A program made the position numbers and the translations under genes. From Oscillospiraceae bacterium (lineage in GTDB: Bacteria; Bacillota; Clostridia; Oscillospirales; Oscillospiraceae): a stretch of DNA of 64,000 bases. The notes below the pieces were generated by a model. It was not told where the DNA came from, searched no databases, and saw only the letters and a list, made by a program, of their open reading frames with translations. The stretch covers positions 1 to 64,000 of the forward strand of contig CAKASQ030000077.1 in the NCBI GenBank assembly GCA_916988195.3, written 5' to 3'. Below, piece by piece: positions 24,031-40,229 of this stretch (position 1 is the first letter of the stretch; each line of letters opens with the position of its first letter).

Positions 24031-24032
24031 AA

Positions 24033-24048
24033 TGTTTCACGTGAAACA
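24033..24048. promoter_or_regulatory. parS centromere site (perfect 16-bp palindrome)
   Basis: TGTTTCACGTGAAACA is an exact match to the bacterial parS consensus bound by chromosomal ParB (Spo0J), which loads on parS and recruits SMC to segregate origins. It is about 2.6 kb from the dnaA promoter, where such sites cluster. It lies in the lipoprotein-rlmD spacer, 13 bases before the rlmD start, so ParB bound here could affect rlmD expression. Confidence 0.93.
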
Positions 24049-24061
24049 CGGAGAAAAACGA

Positions 24062-25726
24062 ATGCGGAAAAATGAAGCATACAGTGTAGAAATTACGGGC
24101 CTCACCGCCGAGGGCGCGGGCGTGGCGCGCATTGACGGACAGGTCGTGTTTGTGCCGGGAGTAATTCCGGATGAGCGATGTGAAATCAGAATCGATCACG
24201 TGGGAAGAACGTGCGCCTATGGCTCTCTGGTGCGAGTGGAAAAACCGTCCGAGCACCGGGTAACGCCGGAATGCGAAAGCTTCGGGCACTGCGGTGGGTG
24301 CGTGTTCTGGCACATGGACTATGCGTGTGAGCTGGAGCAGAAAAGACGGCGCGTGCAGGACGCGCTATCGCGCATTGGAGGCATTGATTTTCCAGACTTG
24401 CAGATCACGGGCAGCCAGAGCATTTACGGCTATCGCAACAAGGTGCAGTTTCCAGTGCAAGTGCAAAACGGAAAAGCAGTAGCCGGCTTTTATAAGGCCG
24501 GGTCACATACGGTAATTCCAATCACGGACTGCAAGATTCAGCCGGGGGTTGCGAAAACCATCCGTGCGGCGGTGCTTTCGTGGATGGAGAAGGAAAACGT
24601 TCCGGCCTACGACGAGCGGACGCATACAGGCCTTGTCCGGCATATTTATCTGCGGTACGGCGCAAAATCTGGGCAGACGCTGGTCTGCATTGTCGCAAAC
24701 TGCGAGGCGCTGCCTAAAAAGAAGGCGCTGGTGCGGGAAATTTTAGCGGCGGACGCGAACGTAACGGGAATCGTCGTTAACTACAATACAAAAAAGAGCA
24801 ACGTCATTTTGGGCGAGCGGTTCGAGACGCTCTATGGAGAAGGATACTTAGAGGATATGCTTCTGGGACTCACGTTCCGACTCTCACCCGCGGCCTTTTA
24901 TCAGGTGAACCACGATCAGGCAGAGCGGCTCTATGAAAAGGCCATCGAGTTTGCCAGGTTTACGGGAGAAGAGACAGCGCTGGATCTATACTGCGGCAGC
25001 GGAACGATTACGCTCTGTCTTGCGCGGCACGTGAAGACGGTCTACGGTGTGGAAATTGTAGACGCGGCGATTCGCGACGCAAAGGAGAACGCCCGGAAAA
25101 ATGGAATTGTAAACACTAAATTTTTCTGCGCCGACGCGGGACAGGCCGCCATTCAGTTCGCGCACGACGGCATCAAACCGGATGTGATCGTCGTCGACCC
25201 ACCGAGAAAGGGCGTGAGCGAGGATGTGATCGAAGCAATGGCACAGATGAGTCCTGAGAGGATCATCTATGTTTCGTGCGACCCCGCGACGCTCGCGCGC
25301 GATATCGCAAGACTGTGGGAGAAGGGATATGAAGCAAAAAAAGCGCACTGCTTCGATCTGTTCCCACGCTGCGCGCATGTGGAGACGGTAGTTCTTTTAT
25401 CCCACAAAAAAGCCGACAGTTATATCCACATTGATGTGGAGTTTGGAGAGGGCGAGGGCAAGATTCCGGTAGATAGTATTGCTAAAAGAGCCGAAGCGTA
25501 TAAGCCCAAAGAAAAAGTGACCTACAAAATGATTAAGGAGTACATAGAAGCGAAATACGGCTTCAAGGTACATACCGCATATATCGCAGAGGTAAAGCGA
25601 AATTTGGGATTGCCGATGTATGATGCTCCTAATGCGGTAGAAGAATTGAAACAGCCGAGGAAACATCCGACACCAGAAAAGGTAGAAGCAATCAAAGATG
25701 CACTTCGTTATTTTGCAGTGATATAA
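24062..25726 (+). CDS. rlmD: 23S rRNA (uracil-C5)-methyltransferase RlmD with element-derived C-terminal tail
   Basis: The first ~450 residues are a TrmA/RumA-type methyltransferase that modifies a 23S rRNA uridine with SAM. They show a TRAM domain, the Fe-S cysteines in CESFGHCGGCVFWHMDYAC, the SAM motif LDLYCGSGTITL, VVDPPRKGV and the catalytic Cys in IIYVSCDPATLARDIA. The usual end of the family (FPRCAHVETVVLLS) is at about residue 448. A further ~105 residues rich in Lys and Glu follow in DNA of visibly lower GC. This is where the ICE begins, so the tail is inferred to be supplied by the element. The ATG at 24062 was chosen for GGAG 8 bases upstream; a longer frame runs back through parS. 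Confidence 0.92.
   Translation: MRKNEAYSVEITGLTAEGAGVARIDGQVVFVPGVIPDERCEIRIDHVGRTCAYGSLVRVEKPSEHRVTPECESFGHCGGCVFWHMDYACELEQKRRRVQDALSRIGGIDFPDLQITGSQSIYGYRNKVQFPVQVQNGKAVAGFYKAGSHTVIPITDCKIQPGVAKTIRAAVLSWMEKENVPAYDERTHTGLVRHIYLRYGAKSGQTLVCIVANCEALPKKKALVREILAADANVTGIVVNYNTKKSNVILGERFETLYGEGYLEDMLLGLTFRLSPAAFYQVNHDQAERLYEKAIEFARFTGEETALDLYCGSGTITLCLARHVKTVYGVEIVDAAIRDAKENARKNGIVNTKFFCADAGQAAIQFAHDGIKPDVIVVDPPRKGVSEDVIEAMAQMSPERIIYVSCDPATLARDIARLWEKGYEAKKAHCFDLFPRCAHVETVVLLSHKKADSYIHIDVEFGEGEGKIPVDSIAKRAEAYKPKEKVTYKMIKEYIEAKYGFKVHTAYIAEVKRNLGLPMYDAPNAVEELKQPRKHPTPEKVEAIKDALRYFAVI
25376..25440 (+). other. Inferred left attachment region (attL) of the ICE in rlmD
   Basis: Host-like RlmD sequence (HVETVVLLS) ends around 25376-25402 and lower-GC element-like sequence follows. 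A perfect inverted repeat TCCACAT-TG-ATGTGGA at 25425-25440 may be a recombinase arm site. rumA/rlmD 3' ends are a known ICE integration hotspot. The exact crossover needs attR, which is outside the window. Confidence 0.45.
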
Positions 25727-25757: not shown

Positions 25758-25796
25758 AGCCGTTTATTCATTTATTTGAGTAAGCGGCTTTTTTCA
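25758..25796 (+). terminator. First leader terminator upstream of parA
   Basis: A 13-bp stem including two G-T pairs (25758-25770 with 25777-25789) and a T-run of six. It may terminate rlmD and attenuate the ICE promoter at 25713. Confidence 0.75.
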
Positions 25797-25826
25797 TCCC
25801 TATTTTTCGGAATAGGGATATTTTTT
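25797..25826 (+). terminator. Second leader terminator upstream of parA
   Basis: TCCCTATT (25797-25804) pairs with AATAGGGA (25811-25818), loop TTTCGG, then TATTTTTT. It begins directly after the first terminator and ends about 20 bases before the parA start. Confidence 0.75.
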
Positions 25827-30617: not shown

Positions 30618-31118
30618 ATGCAGGAAGAAGTGGAAAACAGGACTTTAACACTGGTTGTCAGTGGAACAAAGTTCACCGGCAGGCTGCTCAAAGCCGCCAT
30701 CAGCAAGTACATGGCCCACTGCAAGGAAAAGAAGCTGCAAAAGCAGAGAAGCCGTGACGCTCCTGTGACACCCCACGGCAAACAGACCGTCAAGCAGATC
30801 ATTGGTCAGAATCAGGGGATCTCCAATATTGAGATCACAGACCCATCTATCAGGGAGTTTGAGAAGATCGCCCGGAAATATGGTGTGGACTATGCGGTGA
30901 AGAAAGACCGCAGTAGCTCCCCACCCAAGTACCTGATCTTTTTCAAAGGCCGTGACGCCGATGCGCTGACCGCTGCATTTACCGAGTACACCAGCAAAAA
31001 GGTCAAGAAGGCCGAGAAAATGGAACGCCCGTCTGTGCTGGCAAAACTCAGTCAGTTCAAAGAGATGGTCAAAAATGCCGTGGTGGACCGCACCAAGCGA
31101 AAGGAGCTGGAACGATGA
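30618..31118 (+). CDS. PcfB family (DUF3801) conjugation protein
   Basis: A 166-residue basic protein of the PcfB family. In plasmid pCF10 PcfB is a relaxosome or accessory protein that contacts the coupling protein PcfC. The start at 30618 gives MQEEVENRTLTLVV and is 8 bases after GGAGG; ATGs at 30576 and 30612 are less well placed. Its stop overlaps the virD4 start as ATGA, so the two are coupled. This fits a joint role in delivering the transfer substrate. Confidence 0.85.
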   Translation: MQEEVENRTLTLVVSGTKFTGRLLKAAISKYMAHCKEKKLQKQRSRDAPVTPHGKQTVKQIIGQNQGISNIEITDPSIREFEKIARKYGVDYAVKKDRSSSPPKYLIFFKGRDADALTAAFTEYTSKKVKKAEKMERPSVLAKLSQFKEMVKNAVVDRTKRKELER

Positions 31119-32133
31119 AAAAGCAGTTTGACATCAAAAAGCTCGTTTTGCTGAACCTGCCCTATCTCCTGATGGGGCTGTTTGCTACCAACTTCGGGGA
31201 GGCATGGCGACTGGCTCAGGGGGCAAATGCTTCGGAGAAATTCCTTTCCCTGTTTGCTGTCCTGCCTGGGGCGTTGCAAAGTTTCTGGCCCAGCCTGCAC
31301 CCGTTGGATCTGCTGGTGGGGCTGTGCTGCGGTGCTGGCCTGCGTCTGGCGGTGTATCTCAAAAGTAAAAACGCCAAGAAGTACCGTCACGGCATGGAGT
31401 ATGGCTCTGCCCGTTGGGGAACCCGTGAGGATATTGCTCCCTACATCGACCCGGTGTTCCAGAACAATGTCATTCTCACAAAAACCGAAAGCCTGACCAT
31501 GAACAGCCGCCCCAAGGACCCAAAGACCGCCAGAAACAAAAATGTGCTGGTGATCGGCGGCTCCGGTTCCGGTAAGACCCGTTTCTGGCTCAAACCGAAT
31601 CTGATGCAGATGCACAGCAGCTACGTCGTGACTGACCCGAAGGGAACCATTTTGGTGGAGTGCGGAAAAATGCTCCAAAGGGGCGCACCCAAGCCAGGGA
31701 AAGACGGAAAGCCCATGAAGGATAAGCACGGCAAGGTCATTTATGAGCCGTACCGAATCAAGGTCCTAAATACAATCAACTTCAAGAAGTCCATGCACTA
31801 TAACCCTTTCGCCTATATCCATAGCGAAAAGGACATCTTGAAGCTGGTAACAACGCTGATCGCCAATACCAAAGGCGAAGGCAAGGCCGGAGACGATTTC
31901 TGGGTAAAAGCAGAAACCTTGTTGTACTGCGCGCTTATTGGCTATATCCATTATGAGGCTCCGGTGGAGGAGCAGAACTTCTCTACCCTCATTGAGTTCA
32001 TCAACGCCATGGAAGTCCGTGAGGATGACGAGGAGTTCAAAAACCCCGTAGACCTGATGTTTGATGCACTGGAAGCCGAGAAGCCAAATCACTTTGCGGT
32101 GCGCCAGTATAAGAAATATAAGCTGGCCGCCGG
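31115..32133 (+). pseudogene. virD4: VirD4 coupling protein, N-terminal part, interrupted by the inner element
   Basis: Codons 1-339 and two bases of codon 340 of a VirD4/TraG-type coupling ATPase, the pump that brings relaxase-DNA to the secretion channel. Two transmembrane segments lie at about residues 10-30 and 60-80. Walker A is GGSGSGKTRF (about 148). The sequence breaks after KYKLAAG at 32133, where the inner element begins; it resumes at 40230. This half lacks Walker B, so alone it cannot be an ATPase. The frame stays open through the junction into the recombinase. Joined to 40230-41040 it forms a 609-residue protein of normal length, so this is an interrupted gene rather than a decayed one. 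Confidence 0.93.
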
Positions 32134-32221
32134 TGTTGTATGCTCTAAAAGACTTCTTAATCAAGCGGTTGGGAAGTCTCTTAGAACACACAACCTAAAA
32201 CCGAAGAAAGGAGCGCAAGTT

Positions 32222-34108
32222 ATGAGAAAAAACGAGAAAATCACAGCTCTGTACGAACGACTGAGCCGTGATGACTTTGGCAAAGATGATGACCAGCAGC
32301 GTGAGAGCAATTCCATTTCCAATCAAAAGGCTATGTTGGAGGAGTTCGCCGCACGGCAGGGGTTTACGAACATTGTCCATTTCACGGACGATGGCATTAG
32401 TGGTACTTGCTTTGACCGTCCCGGATTTCTGGCAATGATGAAAGAGGTGGAAGCCGGGAATGTGGAGTACCTGTGTATCAAGGACATGAGCCGCATGGGT
32501 CGTGACTATCTGAAAGTCGGTCAGATTATGGAAATCCTGCGTCAGCGTGGCGTGCGACTTATCGCCATCAATGACGGCGTGGATAGTGCCAGAGGTGACG
32601 ATGATTTTACCCCTTTCCGCAACATTATGAACGAGTATTACGCCAGAGACACCAGCCGTAAAATCCGTTCCACTTTCCAGTCCAAAGGCAAGTCCGGCAA
32701 GCACCTCACAGGCACGGTCATTTACGGCTATCTCTGGAACGAAGCCAGAGACCAATGGTTGGTTGACCCCGAAGCCGCTGATGTGGTCAAGCGCATCTTT
32801 GCCATGACGATTGAGGGCTACGGTCCGTATCAGATCGCCAGCAAGCTGAAAGAAGAAAAAATCCTCATTCCGTCCGCTTACCTTGCCCAGCACGGCGAGG
32901 GTGTGAATAAAAACAAGACTTTCAAAGATGTGTACGGCTGGGGTTCTTCCACCATCTGCAACATTCTTGAAAAGCGTGAATATCTGGGACACACCATCAA
33001 CTTCAAGACTCGAAAGCACTTCAAGGACAAGAAAAGCCATTATGTCCCGGAGGACGAATGGACGATTTTCGAGAATACCCATGAAGCTATCATTGACCAG
33101 CAGACCTTTGACCTTGTGCAGAAAATCCGTGGGAATGTCAGACGCTACCCGGACGGCTGGGGCGAAGCAGCTCCCCTCACAGGCTTGCTTTATTGTGCCG
33201 ATTGCGGCGGCAAGATGTATGTCCACCGTACCAACAACGGCAAGCGTATTTCTCAATATACCTGTTCACAGTACACCAAAGTTCCTTGCGGAACGCTCTG
33301 CAAGACCCAGCACCGTATCAACGAAGATGTGGTACTGTCCCTTGTCTCGGAAATGCTGAAAGCCATTGCCGATTATGCGAAGCATGACAGAGCCGAGTTT
33401 GTCCGTGTGGTGCAGGAAGCGCAGTCCAGCCAGCAGACGGCAGAGGTCAGGAAGCAGCGGACACGCCTTGCCACAGCAAAGCAGAGAGTTTCCGAGCTGG
33501 AAGTCCTGCTCTGCAAAATCTATGAGGACAACATTTTAGGAAAGCTGTCTGACAGCAGATATGCCACTCTGGACGCTCAATATGAAAAGGAGCAGACCGA
33601 GCTTACCGCTGAAATCTCTGTTCTGGAAAAGGCTATCAAGAGCTACGAGAAGCACGAAAAGGACGCTGACCGTTTTATCGCTCTGATTGACAAGTATGAG
33701 AACTTCGACAAGCTGACGATTGCCATGCTCAATGAGTTTATTGAGAAAATCCTTGTGCATGAGCGTGACCGCAAGGGCAGTATTCAGACCACACAGGAGG
33801 TCGAGATTTACTTCAATTTCGTGGGTCGTTTCGTTCCCCCTGCGTTTGGAGAAGTGGAGCTTACCCCGGAGGAATTAGAGGAAATCCGCAAACGTGAGGA
33901 ACGCAAGGACAGGCTTCATCAGAACTACTTGAAGCGGAAAGCCAGCGGAGCGCAGAAGCGATACGAGGACAAAATCAAGAAGCGGAAAAAGGCAGAAATC
34001 GAAGCCAAGAAAGCCGCCATTCGTGCGGAGGACATTGCAAAGGGCGTGTTCGTCCCTGTCAGCAGTTTACCGCAGAGAGAGCCGATGAAAGGAGTACAAA
34101 CAGCATGA
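32222..34108 (+). CDS. Large serine recombinase of the inner element (TnpX/TndX-like)
   Basis: A 628-residue site-specific recombinase. The N-terminal catalytic domain has the nucleophile Ser in LYERLSRDD (Ser15) and arginines in KDMSRMGRDYLK. The recombinase domain follows (about 170-270), then a zinc ribbon (CADCGGKMYV and CSQY, about 325-350), a long coiled coil (about 400-500) and a basic tail. These are features of transposon-type large serine recombinases that excise circles at a 2-bp core. AAAGGAG is 8 bases before the ATG. The open frame extends upstream without a stop into virD4, so a VirD4-recombinase fusion could also be made. The stop overlaps tnpV (ATGA). Confidence 0.95.
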   Translation: MRKNEKITALYERLSRDDFGKDDDQQRESNSISNQKAMLEEFAARQGFTNIVHFTDDGISGTCFDRPGFLAMMKEVEAGNVEYLCIKDMSRMGRDYLKVGQIMEILRQRGVRLIAINDGVDSARGDDDFTPFRNIMNEYYARDTSRKIRSTFQSKGKSGKHLTGTVIYGYLWNEARDQWLVDPEAADVVKRIFAMTIEGYGPYQIASKLKEEKILIPSAYLAQHGEGVNKNKTFKDVYGWGSSTICNILEKREYLGHTINFKTRKHFKDKKSHYVPEDEWTIFENTHEAIIDQQTFDLVQKIRGNVRRYPDGWGEAAPLTGLLYCADCGGKMYVHRTNNGKRISQYTCSQYTKVPCGTLCKTQHRINEDVVLSLVSEMLKAIADYAKHDRAEFVRVVQEAQSSQQTAEVRKQRTRLATAKQRVSELEVLLCKIYEDNILGKLSDSRYATLDAQYEKEQTELTAEISVLEKAIKSYEKHEKDADRFIALIDKYENFDKLTIAMLNEFIEKILVHERDRKGSIQTTQEVEIYFNFVGRFVPPAFGEVELTPEELEEIRKREERKDRLHQNYLKRKASGAQKRYEDKIKKRKKAEIEAKKAAIRAEDIAKGVFVPVSSLPQREPMKGVQTA

Positions 34109-34449
34109 ATATCACTTACACACAGAACGGCGATTATCTTATCCCAAACATCATTATCCGCAAGACCAAGCCCCTCGGACACTACGGCAGACTTCGCAAG
34201 GCGTATCTGGAAATGCACCGTCCGATACTGTTCAATGAGCTGGTGCTATCCGACAAGCTCTTTGAGCATTGCGCCGAGATTGACGAAACAGCACGAAACC
34301 GCATGGAGCTGATCGTGCGGTCACTGGCAGAGCAAAACGGCGTGACCGAGCAACTGAAAGCCGAAAACCAAATGGAATGGGTGCGGCAGATGAACGCTTG
34401 CAAGGCACAGGCAGAGGAGATTGTGAAAGTGGAATTGATTTATGATTGA
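34105..34449 (+). CDS. tnpV: TnpV transposon protein
   Basis: A 114-residue protein of the TnpV family, first named in Tn4451, where it lies next to the tnpX recombinase gene; an excisionase-like or DNA-binding role is suspected but not established. Hallmarks are YTQNGDYLIP, KPLGHYGRLRKAYLE, HRPILFNEL, EIDETARNR and CKAQAEEI. It overlaps the recombinase stop by 4 nt and is thus co-expressed. A second TnpV is encoded in another frame inside the helicase gene at 55296. Confidence 0.88.
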   Translation: MNITYTQNGDYLIPNIIIRKTKPLGHYGRLRKAYLEMHRPILFNELVLSDKLFEHCAEIDETARNRMELIVRSLAEQNGVTEQLKAENQMEWVRQMNACKAQAEEIVKVELIYD

Positions 34450-34590
34450 GCGAGGAAGTCCGGGCAGAAAACTGTTCGGACTTTTCTCATGTAGTCCAAA
34501 GTTGCGGTAGAATTGTTCACGAGTTTTATGGTACAATTTATGCGAATAAAGAAAACGGAAAATTAGAATCTAACAAGAGAATGTGGTTGT

Positions 34591-34668
34591 ATGAAAAAAT
34601 CCATATTAGTATTTTGGGCAATCGTGTGTCTGTTACCTATTCAAAGGAGGTTTAAGAATTTTAAATGA
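34591..34668 (+). pseudogene. Remnant signal-peptide ORF of a lost small gene
   Basis: A 25-codon ORF starting MKKSILVFWAIVCLLPI looks like a cut-off signal peptide; the rest is non-homologous and runs through the binding site of the next ORF. In lactococcin-972-type operons a bacteriocin precursor precedes a DUF1430 membrane protein, so this may be a deleted precursor. AT-rich, unlike the flanking tnpV. The identification is inference. Confidence 0.3.
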
Positions 34669-34775
34669 AACATATAAGAAATATATTGCTGTTGATTACG
34701 ATTATTTTTGCTTTTGTTATGCAAGCTGAAGTATATCAAAATATAAAGCCAATCAGTTTCACGAGAAAACTATGA
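34665..34775 (+). pseudogene. Remnant N-terminus of a membrane protein
   Basis: A 36-codon ORF starting MKHIRNILLLITIIFAFVMQ, a typical hydrophobic N-terminus with AAAGGAGG upstream. It then runs antisense into the 3' end of the minus-strand DUF1430-like gene. This suggests that the original plus-strand DUF1430 gene was broken by an inversion here. The join is not in frame if the downstream piece is simply flipped back. Confidence 0.35.
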
Positions 34776-36175
34776 CTATAAGTATAATCCTCCCCGACAT
34801 TCGTCAGCATAAAATAGTGTGGACCAAGCTGTTCTGCATATTTTTTCGCAGCATTACGAATTGTGCTTTCATCGCATCCGTAGATCACCTCACCATTATA
34901 TGTTCCTGTTTCGATATAACTTCCATTCAAAGCAACAGCCTCATTTGCCTGATAAATAACAATCGGATTTGTTGCTCTTGACAATCCGTCAATAGCCTCT
35001 TCTCTGTTCGAATTGAGATAATAAAATTGCTCTCTGCCAGAATATTCTTTATAAACAACACGCAGTTCTTCTGCATTTTGGGTAAGAGAGTCAATTTCCT
35101 CTTTTGCGATATCTTTGTATGATTCCGCATTTTTTCCCTTTGGCGCGAAGACCACGATATCCTCTTTTTCATCATCTTCAGTAAGCATATCAGAAAACCC
35201 TTGCAGCATATCTCTGGCATTATGATTTACAAAAATATAATTATCCGTATCGCTTATCCGGCTGCCTATGCAGACCACCGGATTTATAGTGTTGTATTCA
35301 TTTTCGTAAAGGTCATTCCAAAATTCGCTCTCTTTGGATTCCTCCTCATTTTCTTCAAAAGGAGGTTCAATCTGCATAACTCCAAAATAGTAATCATTAT
35401 AATGATTTTCTAAAAGAGTAGTGTTTGTAAGTAAATTACCTTGAATGCTACTGAGATTTGTAGTTATTGTAAAAATCGTCATAGCAGTAGCAAATACTTT
35501 AAGACCGTTCAGAAGATAAAACATACCTTTTTTATCTGAAGCATTGGCAAAGGCTTTTTTTACATCAAAGCGGACAAAAGCAGCATAAGGAATTACGGAA
35601 AGAACTGCTCCGGCACAATACACTGCCAAAATGAGATGATCTTCATACGCTCCCGATATAAATTGAGAAACAAGCAACTTTGCTAAGACGAATAATGCAG
35701 CATATGAAATCATATCAGCCACTACAGCTTTTAGAGCAATCACAGCAGCATTTTCGCCCAGAGAAGCTCGTACAACTACTTCCTTTTGTCTGCGTATCAC
35801 CTCAATCATATTAAGTACAATCATCAATATGGCAACCAGGCCCCAAACAATGAACATCATATCAGTTTCGGTTGATTGCCAAAACTCTGGCTGCGATATA
35901 GAATATTCTTTTGCCAAATCTTGATATGTGGCAATAATGTCATCATCGTCACCGATATAGCTGACCATTATTTCCTGTCCATTGCCTGTGTTTTTTGCTT
36001 CTCTAAAATCTTCAAATTCTATTACGGTGATTCCGCCTATCAAAGCCGTATATGTTTTTTCCTCAATATCCATTGTGCTTTTAAGACTATCCCGAACAAC
36101 GGTATCATCACCATATTTTCTCTGTCCGAAGTCCAGCGAGCCGTCCGGCACATGGCGATTACTCACACCAACCAA
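34736..36175 (-). pseudogene. Bacteriocin-associated integral membrane protein (DUF1430-like), truncated and rearranged
   Basis: A 479-codon frame on the minus strand, the only minus-strand gene of the inner element and markedly AT-rich. It resembles DUF1430 bacteriocin-associated membrane proteins. A transmembrane helix is near residue 107 (MMFIVWGLVAILMIVLNM), a hydrophobic block spans about 140-205 and another about 220, and a long extracellular-type acidic region follows. Full members are about 650-700 residues; here the N-terminus is replaced by sequence (MVGVSNRHVPDGSLDFGQ) with no binding site, read antisense from the mob leader. No partner ABC ATPase is present. Probably inactive cargo. 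Confidence 0.6.
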
Positions 36176-36203
36176 GCGAACAGAGAAAAGGAGCTGAAAG
36201 CCG

Positions 36204-37700
36204 ATGGCACTATTTCATCTGAGCGTCACGCAGACTAAGCGAAGCGCAGGACAGTCCGCTATTGCTTCTGCCGCCTACCGTGCCGGGGAGCGATTGTATA
36301 GCGAGTATTACGGCGAATACAGCGACTACACCCGCAAGGGCGGCGTGATCTGCTCTGACATTTTCCTGCCGTCCCATGCACCGCCCGAATACGCAGACCG
36401 CCAGACCCTATGGAACGCCGTGGAAAAAGCCGAGCGTGGAAAGAACGCCCAGCTTGCATACAGCTTTGACATTGCCTTGCAGAATGAATTTTCCCTTGAG
36501 GAAAACATCGCTCTTGCAAGGCAATTTTTGTTGGAGAACTTTGTGAGCCGGGGCATGGTGGTTGACTTCGCCGTACACCAGCCAGACCGGGAGGACGGCG
36601 GCATACCAAACCCGCATTTTCATGTGCTTTGCCCCATCCGCCCCATCGAGCAGAACGGCAAATGGGGACTAAAGCAACGCCGGGTGTATGAGCTGGACGA
36701 GGACGGCAACCGTATCCGGGACGCAGACGGAAAGTTTGTGTTCAACGCCGTTCCCACTACCGACTGGGGCAGTCCCGAAACGCTGGAATACTGGCGGCAG
36801 ACATGGGCGGAGCTATGCAATGCCAAGTTTGCGGAAAAAGGTATTGATGTTCGTATCGACCACCGGAGCTATGAGCGTCAGGGCGTGGAGCTTCTTCCCA
36901 CCGTCCACGAGGGCGCAACCGTCCGGGCCATGGAGAAGAAAGGCATACGCACCGAGAAAGGCGAGTTCAACCGCTGGATCAAAGCCACCAATGCCGTTAT
37001 CCGTGACATCAAGAAGAAAATCACTCTCCTGTTTGATTGGATTGCCGAAGCAAAAGCGGAGCTTGCCAAGCCGCAGGCACCCGACCTTGTTTCTCTGCTG
37101 AACGCCTATTACACCAGCCGCAGAGCCGGGGCATATTCGCAGAAAGGCAAGGTCAGCAACCTAAAGGAGATGAACGAGACTTTCAATTATCTCCGGGCAA
37201 ACGGCATTTACTCCCTTGAGGATTTGGAACGCCGTGTCAGCGAACACAGTGCTGCCACAGAGAGCTTGAAGAAAACGCTGGACGAACAGACCGCTCGAAT
37301 GAAAGCGATTAAGCGGCTCTATGACAGCTCTGCTGCTTTCCAGAGCTTGAAGCCTGTCTATGACGGCTTGCAGAAAATCAAGTTTGAGAAGCCCAGAGCC
37401 AAGTACAAGGCAGAGCATGAAACGGAACTGAAACAGTTCTACGCCGCCAGACGCAAGCTGACCGGAGAATTCCCGGACGGCAAGGTGGATATGAAAAAGC
37501 TGACCGAAGAGTATGACGAGCTGGAACAGGCGCACAACACCACCTATGGCGAGTTTAAGACCGTCAGAGACGATTTACACCGTCTTTGGAAGGTCAAGTC
37601 ATGTGTAGATACTGCCGCCCGATTTAACGAGCGTACAGAGGAACAAATGCTCCAAAATCGACCCCAAACACGACAGAAAAAGGAGGATATGACACGATGA
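36204..37700 (+). CDS. MobA/MobL relaxase (MobQ class)
   Basis: A 498-residue relaxase that would nick the inner element's oriT and pilot its strand through another element's channel. The N-terminus MALFHLSVTQTKRSAGQSA and the following SAAYRAGERLYSEYYGE (candidate catalytic tyrosine) are typical of MobL. The metal-binding histidines are in NPHFHVLCPIRP (about 136-147). The C-terminal half is helical and basic. AAAAGGAG lies 10 bases upstream. The stop overlaps the next ORF as ATGA. The oriT is not identified; the spacer before the gene has been altered by the cargo rearrangement. Confidence 0.9.
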   Translation: MALFHLSVTQTKRSAGQSAIASAAYRAGERLYSEYYGEYSDYTRKGGVICSDIFLPSHAPPEYADRQTLWNAVEKAERGKNAQLAYSFDIALQNEFSLEENIALARQFLLENFVSRGMVVDFAVHQPDREDGGIPNPHFHVLCPIRPIEQNGKWGLKQRRVYELDEDGNRIRDADGKFVFNAVPTTDWGSPETLEYWRQTWAELCNAKFAEKGIDVRIDHRSYERQGVELLPTVHEGATVRAMEKKGIRTEKGEFNRWIKATNAVIRDIKKKITLLFDWIAEAKAELAKPQAPDLVSLLNAYYTSRRAGAYSQKGKVSNLKEMNETFNYLRANGIYSLEDLERRVSEHSAATESLKKTLDEQTARMKAIKRLYDSSAAFQSLKPVYDGLQKIKFEKPRAKYKAEHETELKQFYAARRKLTGEFPDGKVDMKKLTEEYDELEQAHNTTYGEFKTVRDDLHRLWKVKSCVDTAARFNERTEEQMLQNRPQTRQKKEDMTR

Positions 37701-37999
37701 AAAAATACGACTGGAAGAACGAGTACAACCCCATCCGCAGAACGGCAAAACGCCTTTTGAGCGGAGAACCTTTGACCGATGGCAGACCGCTTTCCGACCT
37801 GATCGAGCTGGACGAACACACCCGGAAATGCCTTGCCTTTGAAGCCACCCTCACCGACCGCCAGATTGATATGTTGCAGGAGCTGGGCTATCTGCCTGTT
37901 ATCATGAGACAGTACGGCGAGGAATGTGCGAACTGCCCCTACACGCTGGACGAGCGTGAGCATGGCATTTGCAGACGATGCGCTGTTTTCAAGAAGTAA
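37697..37999 (+). CDS. Small zinc-ribbon-like protein of the inner element
   Basis: A 100-residue protein of unknown function. The C-terminus has CANC...CRRC spaced like a zinc ribbon (about 80-96). The start overlaps the relaxase stop (ATGA) and it ends 11 bases before the primase gene. Co-expression suggests an accessory role in relaxosome assembly or replication. Confidence 0.7.
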   Translation: MKKYDWKNEYNPIRRTAKRLLSGEPLTDGRPLSDLIELDEHTRKCLAFEATLTDRQIDMLQELGYLPVIMRQYGEECANCPYTLDEREHGICRRCAVFKK

Positions 38000-38010
38000 G
38001 GAGGACGCCC

Positions 38011-39882
38011 ATGCAGTACACCCAAGCACAGATCGACCGGGCAAACGCCGTCAGTCTGGAAGATTTTCTCCGCACACAGGGAGAGACGCTTATCAAAAGC
38101 GGACGGGAATACCGCTGGAAAGAACATGACAGCCTGACCGTCCGGGGAAACAAGTGGTTTCGCCACAGCCAGAGCAAGGGCGGCTATCCCATTGATTTTG
38201 TCATGGAGTTTTACGGCAAGTCCTTTCCCGAAGCTGTCCAGATGTTGACAGGCGAAAACGGCGAGGGACAGGCCGAAGCCACCACAGCACCGCCCACAGC
38301 GTTCCACTTGCCCTTGCACAACAGAACAGCCGACAGAGCAATTCAATATCTTTGCGAAAGCCGAGGTCTCAACCCGAAACTGGTTGAGGCTTTTCTTCTT
38401 TCCGGGGATATTTACGAGGACGCAAAGCGGCACAATGTTGTGTTTGTCGGCAGAGACCGAAACGGCACACCGAGATATGCCCATGTGCGAGGAACGGCAG
38501 ACACATTCAGACAGGATATTACCGGGTCTGACAAGTCCTATCCGTTCCGCTATGAGGGCAACAGCAACCAGCTCTTTGTCTTTGAAGCGCCAATAGACCT
38601 GTTATCATTCATCTGCCTTTATCCGCAGGATTGGCAGACAAGAAATTATCTTGCCCTGGGCGGCGTTTCGGGCAAAGCCCTTGACCGTTTTCTTTCTGAA
38701 CGCAAGGACACCCGAAAAGTATTCCTCTGCCTTGACAGCGACACCGCAGGAAGTGAAGCCTGCTTCCGACTGGCGCAGGACATTCCCAGCGAGATCGCCG
38801 TCATTCGCCTTGTCCCGGCAAGGAAAGACTGGAACGATGTTCTCCGTCAGCAAGGGGACATTCCCAGCCGCAAATTCATAGCCGAAACAATCACGCTGCG
38901 AGAGCTGCCCACCGCCCAGCCTGTCCCAATGCTCCGTATGGCAGATGTGGAGCTGACGAGCGTGGATTGGCTATGGTTTCCGTATATCCCCTTTGGAAAG
39001 CTGACGATCATACAGGGCAACCCCGGCGAGGGCAAGACCTACTTTGCCATGCGTCTTGCGGCGGCTTGCACCAACCGAAAGCCCTTACCCGGTATGGAGA
39101 CACTTGAGCCTTTCAATATCATCTACCAGACCGCAGAGGACGGTTTGGGCGATACCGTTAAGCCCCGGCTGATGGAAGCTGACGCAGACCTTGAACGAGT
39201 GCTTGTCATTGACGATAGAGACACACCGCTGACCCTTGCCGATGAACGCATAGCAAGGGCAATCAGGGAGAACAACGCAAGGCTGGTTATCATTGACCCG
39301 GTGCAGGCGTTTCTGGGCGCAGATGTGGACATGAACCGGGCAAATGAAGTCCGTCCCATCTTCCGCAGTCTGGGAGACATTGCACAGGCTACCGGGTGCG
39401 CTATCGTGCTGATCGGACACCTCAACAAAGCCGCAGGAACGCAAAGCACCTACCGGGGATTGGGGTCTATCGACATTACGGCGGCAGTCCGCAGTCTGCT
39501 TTTTATCGGCAAGCTGAAGGACAGCCCCACAACGAGGGTGCTTATCCATGAGAAAAGCTCCCTTGCGCCGCCCGGACAGTCCCTTGCCTTTTCTTTGGGA
39601 GACGAGAAAGGCTTTGAATGGATAGGAGCTTATGACATTACCGCTGACGAGCTTCTTGCCGGGACAGACACCGCCAAGACCGAAAGCAAGACCGCACAGG
39701 CGCAAATGATCATTCTGGAACTGCTTGCAGACGGAAAGCGTATGCCGAGCGCAGAGCTGGAAAAGACGGTCAATGAGCGTGGGATTTCCTCACGCACCAT
39801 GAGAACGGCAAAGAGTCGTATCGGGGACAGACTTGTGACCGAGAAAGACGGCACATCATGGGTCTGCTATCTCCGAGACTGA
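38011..39882 (+). CDS. Primase-helicase fusion (DUF3991/Toprim plus RepA-like AAA ATPase)
   Basis: A 623-residue protein. The N-terminal half has a DUF3991-like segment and a Toprim fold (VFEAPIDLLSF about 191; VFLCLDSDTAGSEA about 240). The C-terminal half is a RecA-like hexameric helicase of the RepA type with Walker A GNPGEGKTYFAM (about 338), Walker B RLVIIDPVQAFLGA (about 427) and GHLNKAAG. A small winged-helix-like domain ends it. It would prime and unwind the mobilised strand, giving the inner element its own replication. AAGGAGG lies 6 bases before the ATG at 38011. Confidence 0.88.
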   Translation: MQYTQAQIDRANAVSLEDFLRTQGETLIKSGREYRWKEHDSLTVRGNKWFRHSQSKGGYPIDFVMEFYGKSFPEAVQMLTGENGEGQAEATTAPPTAFHLPLHNRTADRAIQYLCESRGLNPKLVEAFLLSGDIYEDAKRHNVVFVGRDRNGTPRYAHVRGTADTFRQDITGSDKSYPFRYEGNSNQLFVFEAPIDLLSFICLYPQDWQTRNYLALGGVSGKALDRFLSERKDTRKVFLCLDSDTAGSEACFRLAQDIPSEIAVIRLVPARKDWNDVLRQQGDIPSRKFIAETITLRELPTAQPVPMLRMADVELTSVDWLWFPYIPFGKLTIIQGNPGEGKTYFAMRLAAACTNRKPLPGMETLEPFNIIYQTAEDGLGDTVKPRLMEADADLERVLVIDDRDTPLTLADERIARAIRENNARLVIIDPVQAFLGADVDMNRANEVRPIFRSLGDIAQATGCAIVLIGHLNKAAGTQSTYRGLGSIDITAAVRSLLFIGKLKDSPTTRVLIHEKSSLAPPGQSLAFSLGDEKGFEWIGAYDITADELLAGTDTAKTESKTAQAQMIILELLADGKRMPSAELEKTVNERGISSRTMRTAKSRIGDRLVTEKDGTSWVCYLRD

Positions 39883-39883
39883 C

Positions 39884-40024
39884 AACAGGAACACGGCAAG
39901 CGTGGCAAAGACGGCAAGGTTTTTATAGATACCTTAATGTTGCCGCCTTGCCTGGTTCCCTCATACCGACACCGCCCGACGATGAACAGTCACCGGGCAT
40001 TTTTCATTTACAGGAGGATTTTGA
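39884..40024 (+). other. Spacer with inverted repeats before tnpW
   Basis: The 141-base spacer contains GGCAAGG (from 39932) with an inverted CCTTGCC about 25 bases on, and GCCCG...CGGGC followed by ATTTTT just before tnpW. The first could be a transfer or regulatory structure, the second a weak terminator. No ORF is seen. Confidence 0.4.
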
Positions 40025-40183
40025 ATGAACAATACCGCAACTAACAACACCCCTTGCCCGACTGTGAGAAAGCAGATCGGCAAGACCACCTATATCGTCC
40101 GTGTCCATTTCAGCGAGACCGCCAAGGAGACGATGGAGGACAAAATCAAGCGTATGCTCCGTGAAGAAGTCCGCAGAATGTAA
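40025..40183 (+). CDS. tnpW: TnpW transposon protein
   Basis: A 52-residue protein. The sequence PCPTVRKQIGKTTYIVRVHF then SETAKETMEDKIKRML is typical of TnpW, a small protein named in Tn4451-type transposons; its function is unknown. AGGAGG is 8 bases before the ATG. It is the last gene before the right end of the inner element. Confidence 0.85.
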   Translation: MNNTATNNTPCPTVRKQIGKTTYIVRVHFSETAKETMEDKIKRMLREEVRRM

Positions 40184-40203
40184 CTTCTTTTTGAATTTGA
40201 TGA

Positions 40204-40229
40204 AAAAGTCCTTGACTTTTCGTCTCTGG
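40204..40229. repeat. Right end of the inner element with terminal hairpin
   Basis: AAAAGTC (40204-40210) and GACTTTT (40214-40220) form a 7-bp inverted repeat with a 3-base gap, followed by CGTCTCTGG; the final GG is the shared dinucleotide. It is probably part of the recombinase attachment site. Confidence 0.55.

Follow-up and report, generated by a model that had tools for sequence, protein, structure and literature searches.

A putative recombinase C-terminal domain exchanged with the 3' end of rlmD by an integrated element in an Oscillospiraceae bacterium

In the streptococci, ICEs and IMEs inserted in rumA (the rlmD gene) have been described to trade the 3' part of their integrase gene reciprocally for that of rumA, with a change of reading frame in both proteins, and different activities of the two resulting integrase forms were suggested with reference to phage Mx8 (Ambroset et al., 2016; PMC4701971). 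As summarized in that work, Myxococcus phage Mx8 carries attP inside its integrase gene, and its integration generates a new integrase 3' end and alters integrase activity (PMC4701971). In Clostridium difficile, studies of CTn5 report that this element moved into rumA, fusing it to CD1844A, that a CD1844A-like tail is present on another RumA protein (Van Eijk et al., 2015; PMC4320837), that elements of the CTn5/Tn6103 type shuttle between rumA and an adhesin gene and may occur in tandem (PMC4320837, PMC3158075), and that they are flanked by perfect 5-bp direct repeats (Brouwer et al., 2011; PMC3158075). Furthermore, artificial fusions of serine integrases with RDFs have established that a fused domain can change directionality (PMC5737554).

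The locus analyzed here lies in a window of 64,000 nucleotides (the whole stretch under analysis) that is part of a 107-kb contig (C77), and it presents the features of the streptococcal class: a recombinase with Resolvase, Recombinase, and zinc ribbon recombinase domains, an insertion site close to the rlmD 3' end, a short direct repeat, and an attR located in the integrase gene. The streptococcal rumA ICEs likewise rely on one serine integrase, in which these three Pfam domains are also present, target rlmD, and have attR inside the integrase gene, but a frame change is stated for them, whereas neither side loses its frame here, and the exchanged piece is identified here as a conserved recombinase domain, unlike in the streptococcal description. 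The CTn5/Tn6103-type elements resemble the present one in their 5-bp repeats, rumA fusion, and tandems, a likeness of published descriptions rather than of aligned sequences; the passages of PMC4320837 and PMC3158075 on these elements do not trace CD1844A to a recombinase, whereas the tail is traced to one here. Mx8 also has attP within its integrase gene, but its enzyme is an unrelated tyrosine integrase, and in the account of it in PMC4701971 no housekeeping enzyme trades ends with the integrase for a conserved domain. The integrase-RDF fusions, in turn, are engineered, whereas the C-terminal domain (CTD) described here is natural and has no shown relation to RDFs. The swap itself has thus been reported before for the streptococcal rumA ICEs and observed with CTn5; what is added here is the recognition of the tail as a conserved domain of recombinases, some of which carry it permanently, a circular example, a kept frame, selection, and decay scars, with the exchange resolved base by base and in many species. 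The features of the locus are as follows.

24032-25726, + strand: rlmD-tail ORF, 564 aa.
24032-25381, + strand: host rlmD (23S rRNA U1939 methyltransferase) up to the recombination core; TIGR00479, E = 3e-128.
25382-25386, + strand: attL core GAGAC, a Glu codon plus the AC of a Thr codon; boundary of the DNA shared by six tails.
25387-25726, + strand: element-borne tail, which now closes the rlmD ORF; the same domain is found on recombinases.
25758-25789 and 25796-25819, + strand: two terminator-like hairpins directly 3' of the tail (pattern scan).
25382-64000, + strand: integrated element, the part in the window; it continues to C77:83842, for a total of 58,461 bases.
C77:82203-83900: recombinase gene spanning attR, with Resolvase, Recombinase, and Zn_ribbon_recom domains.

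In profile searches, the TIGR00479 RlmD model covers residues 24-451 of the 564-aa ORF, and the alignment with solved RlmD relatives reaches residue 458 and no further, in agreement with a preliminary description of this DNA that had RlmD homology ending at HVETVVLLS. That description had also proposed a foreign, basic tail of lower GC, read in frame, followed by an ICE promoter. The foreign in-frame tail is upheld: it comprises 107 codons, matches no Pfam or NCBIfam family at curated cut-offs, and shows a drop in GC from 0.55 in rlmD to 0.42 (GC3, 0.64 to 0.43), while no 324-nt window within rlmD falls below 0.52 and just 8 of 938 windows across the remaining contig are as low as the tail. 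Its basic character is mild (about 20 K+R versus 17 D+E), and the promoter is not borne out, with one promoter-like site after the tail versus 1.2 expected by chance. Terminator-like sites are instead found there (three versus 0.5 expected in the pattern scan). The two hairpins at 25758-25819 would end rlmD-tail transcripts and, in the circular form of the element, recombinase-CTD transcripts; given their position directly after the tail, the element therefore seems to terminate the transcript of its target gene as well.

The RlmD loci of 29 relatives were read, one of which is cut off before its 3' end. Nearly all of the remaining RlmDs reach their end at most about 20 residues past the HVETV motif. 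An unrelated end of 60 residues is seen in one, a different tail in only two, and broken tail remnants containing stop codons in a further two. The RlmD from the same genus ends HVETVVLMSRKDT, without the tail, and the comparison with element-free relatives advocated in the preliminary description finds the same tail absent from them. Native RlmD needs just about 10-20 residues from HVETV onward, and since HVETVVLL completes its fold, the tail would be tolerated.

The first base of the element falls in the core GAGAC at 25382-25386, inside the HVETVV codons, a more precise junction than that of the preliminary description, and a matching core lies beyond the window, at C77:83838-83842, inside the large serine recombinase gene and in the same frame as in rlmD. 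A search of the contig for the exact 11-base junction repeat yielded nothing useful, since the core is only 5 bases long, and the right-end core was located by a repeat search with mismatches allowed. The C-terminus of the recombinase reads GNTVETVVLLEKTETGRKTRIVEK, with GNT-VET-VVLLEKTETGRKTRIVEK around the core, and the displaced native 3' end that had been predicted for the far end of the element, VETVVLLEKTETGRKTRIVEK, follows the core there. RlmD keeps its reading frame across the junction with the element, as had also been proposed, and joining the flanks in silico at GAGAC generates two in-frame products: an RlmD that lacks the tail and ends HVETVVLLEKTETGRKTRIVEK, and a recombinase of 658 residues whose C-terminus is the tail found in the window. 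The location of GAGAC in the same frame within the recombinase, followed by the native RlmD end, places attP within the recombinase gene, so that integration exchanges the C-termini of RlmD and recombinase.

Comparison with other genomes points to the same bases. Six tails that are at least 98% identical share DNA only from GAGAC onward; to the left of it lie RlmD genes in three species, recombinases in two cases, and a non-genic sequence in one. At the right junction, a 98.5% identity between recombinase regions, which extends over 3.8 kb, is lost immediately past GAGAC. In other genomes, the ends that follow VE(T) in recombinases of the same subfamily differ and include VETVCLLSRK, VETVVLMSRVDK, VETVILLSHTSHQTVL, and VECVILIKQITNNQGDIL, the last of which is a right end that narrows the core to GAG. 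By these alignments, the crossover takes place inside GAGAC, and probably inside GAG. In five other genomes, the tail is followed on its own strand by such a recombinase, 43-57 kb further downstream, and in a circular contig from a distant relative (IMG/VR 3300021400_004437; 10,418 bases, with an exact 107-base terminal repeat), the only circular contig found with both, recombinase and tail form a single ORF. This contig also encodes two similar methyltransferase-like ORFs. Most recombinase-tail ORFs seen in assembled genomes probably reflect tandem elements, with the tail belonging to the next element, and tandems do occur, with one recombinase carrying the next element's tail. Among the 79 best loci of the genome scan described below, the RlmD and recombinase fusions keep the frame, as does a streptococcal phage RlmD-tail ORF.

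Relatives of the tail are encoded at 402 places in the 84,980 genomes scanned, and the best 79 of these 402 loci comprise 51 RlmD-type proteins, 10 recombinases, 17 loci elsewhere, and one that is cut off. When the 17 unassigned loci were checked for an out-of-frame RlmD, one proved to be an RlmD with a frameshifted tail (L149), and apart from it no RlmD was detected within 2.5 kb. At non-RlmD sites the sequence left of the core is mostly CATGTGGAGAC or a close variant, which makes this DNA motif, and not RlmD as such, the target. Within the same genome, a 10-kb element (contig C9, about 11.1-21.4 kb) resides in a lipoprotein gene; its recombinase is 46% identical to that of C77 and ends ETMVETL, and a related tail is fused in frame to the lipoprotein. 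This element performs the same swap on the lipoprotein gene, whose form free of the element was sought in 20 relatives and not found. In a separate case (L151:9900-10030), which is a secondary site, a divergent ORF resembling a recombinase carries the tail in a shifted frame (STAFPQK...).

Sister recombinases bearing the domain permanently, and without the core, are encoded at about 27 further viral-contig loci (mostly 35-39% identical), and they form a clade with support of 96/100 in a recombinase tree whose root is not fixed and which implies no order of the swapped and permanent states. The presence of the domain in the single ORF of the circle and its permanence on the sister recombinases identify the tail as the C-terminal domain of the element's own large serine recombinase. 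The proposal that the element supplies the 3' end of rlmD consequently needs qualification: the tail does arrive with the element, but as a recombinase CTD and not as a purpose-made spare part. Median dN/dS for the tail is 0.048 over 3,489 pairs, whether on RlmD, on a recombinase, or elsewhere, and the tail is under strong purifying selection; conserved, and permanent in the sister clade, the CTD therefore matters to the recombinase. All 27 tails compared match phrog_27283, a family without assigned function, and Pfam, PDB-sequence, and Foldseek searches of the tail returned no identity. The AF2 model of the tail has three or four helices at moderate confidence, with no fold match; the winged-helix family HTH_33 reaches an E of only 0.086, and a winged-helix DNA-binding domain would be a guess. 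A last beta strand common to RlmD and recombinase, formed by the core peptide, was also considered, and it was dropped because the peptide, although it closes the solved fold in RlmD, is placed by AF2 in an unstructured linker stretch of the recombinase.

Taken as a whole, the evidence makes it highly probable that the locus reflects an ICE whose recombinase carries attP in its own gene and which carries out a frame-keeping 3' swap with rlmD, with a probable adjustment of recombinase activity. In this model, attP is located in the linker between the zinc-ribbon/coiled-coil part of the recombinase and its CTD, and its core, GAGAC, is also that of the rlmD target and is read there in the same frame (xVET), allowing the 3' parts to be swapped without loss of frame. 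Crossover at the core provides RlmD with the recombinase CTD and the recombinase with the short native RlmD end, leaving both frames intact, and excision would restore the two genes. The integrating recombinase, expressed from the circle, would hence possess the CTD, and the excising one, expressed from the integrated copy, would lack it. By analogy with phage Mx8 and the RDF fusions, and given the selection on the tail, the swap probably reports the state of the element and sets recombinase activity or directionality. A stricter version, tenable although short of probable, is a hard-wired directionality switch in which the CTD form integrates and the CTD-less form excises, the CTD parked on RlmD under the host promoter is inactive or acts in trans, and attP evolved in the linker so as to couple enzyme form to DNA state.

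Three other readings have to be weighed against this model. The swap may be real but neutral, with attP falling in the recombinase gene by chance and both recombinase forms behaving alike. Recombinases with very different host-derived ends do persist, and CTn5 and its relatives are described as excising when integrated (PMC3158075), so that a CTD-less form, if built alike, can excise; on the other hand, the CTD is strongly conserved and permanent in the sister clade, and the same kind of swap altered the activity or specificity of the Mx8 integrase, according to the summary in PMC4701971. Neutrality is thus a genuine possibility, but a somewhat doubtful one. A replacement 3' end evolved for the purpose of keeping the host RlmD working would account for an RlmD left in frame and given a stop codon and terminators, and for the 51 of the 79 best loci where the tail is on RlmD-type proteins, but it is very improbable in view of the 10-20 residues from HVETV that native RlmD needs, the point to which solved relatives align, of the tails found on recombinases, a lipoprotein, and non-genic flanks, and of their permanence on sister recombinases without an rlmD-like core. 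Lastly, the single continuous ORF might suggest that the tail is a C-terminal domain native to the RlmD of this lineage, a reading that can practically be set aside given the HVETVVLMSRKDT end in the same genus, the stop soon after HVETV in nearly all other relatives, the broken remnants in two of them, the shift in composition, the identity of the tail across species, and the displaced native end at attR.

The exchange of a recombinase CTD with rlmD provides an explanation for the hitherto unexplained C-terminal extension of many Clostridia and some Bacilli RlmDs, which is a parked mobile recombinase domain and not an RlmD domain, and it turns the RlmD tail into a simple means of spotting inserted elements and the scars that they leave. 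Furthermore, because the domain is permanent in the sister recombinases and swapped in this group, the system constitutes a natural experiment on direction control in large serine recombinases.

The element encodes ParA, ParB, a MobA/MobL relaxase, and a TraG P-loop protein, and, set against the relaxase, VirD4, and VirB4 of a CTn5/Tn1549-type conjugation module, its conjugation genes comprise MobA/MobL, the N-part of VirD4, and the TraG P-loop protein, with VirD4 interrupted by a nested insert. The VirD4/TraG gene (window 31115-34108) is split by this insert of about 8.1 kb (about 32134-40227), which contains the MobA/MobL relaxase gene (36204-37700) and is a mobilizable element nested in the ICE; the VirD4 N-part reads in frame into another serine recombinase, of the DUF4368 type and the second in the ICE, and the VirD4/TraG gene is uninterrupted in two relatives (L097 and L014). 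Outside these elements, a member of the tail family annotated as hypothetical protein is encoded on Enterococcus plasmids, such as NZ_KR936172.1 (L029:11309-11587), where it is probably the remnant of such an element, and in many resistance plasmids this gene adjoins spw, lsa(E), and lnu(B).
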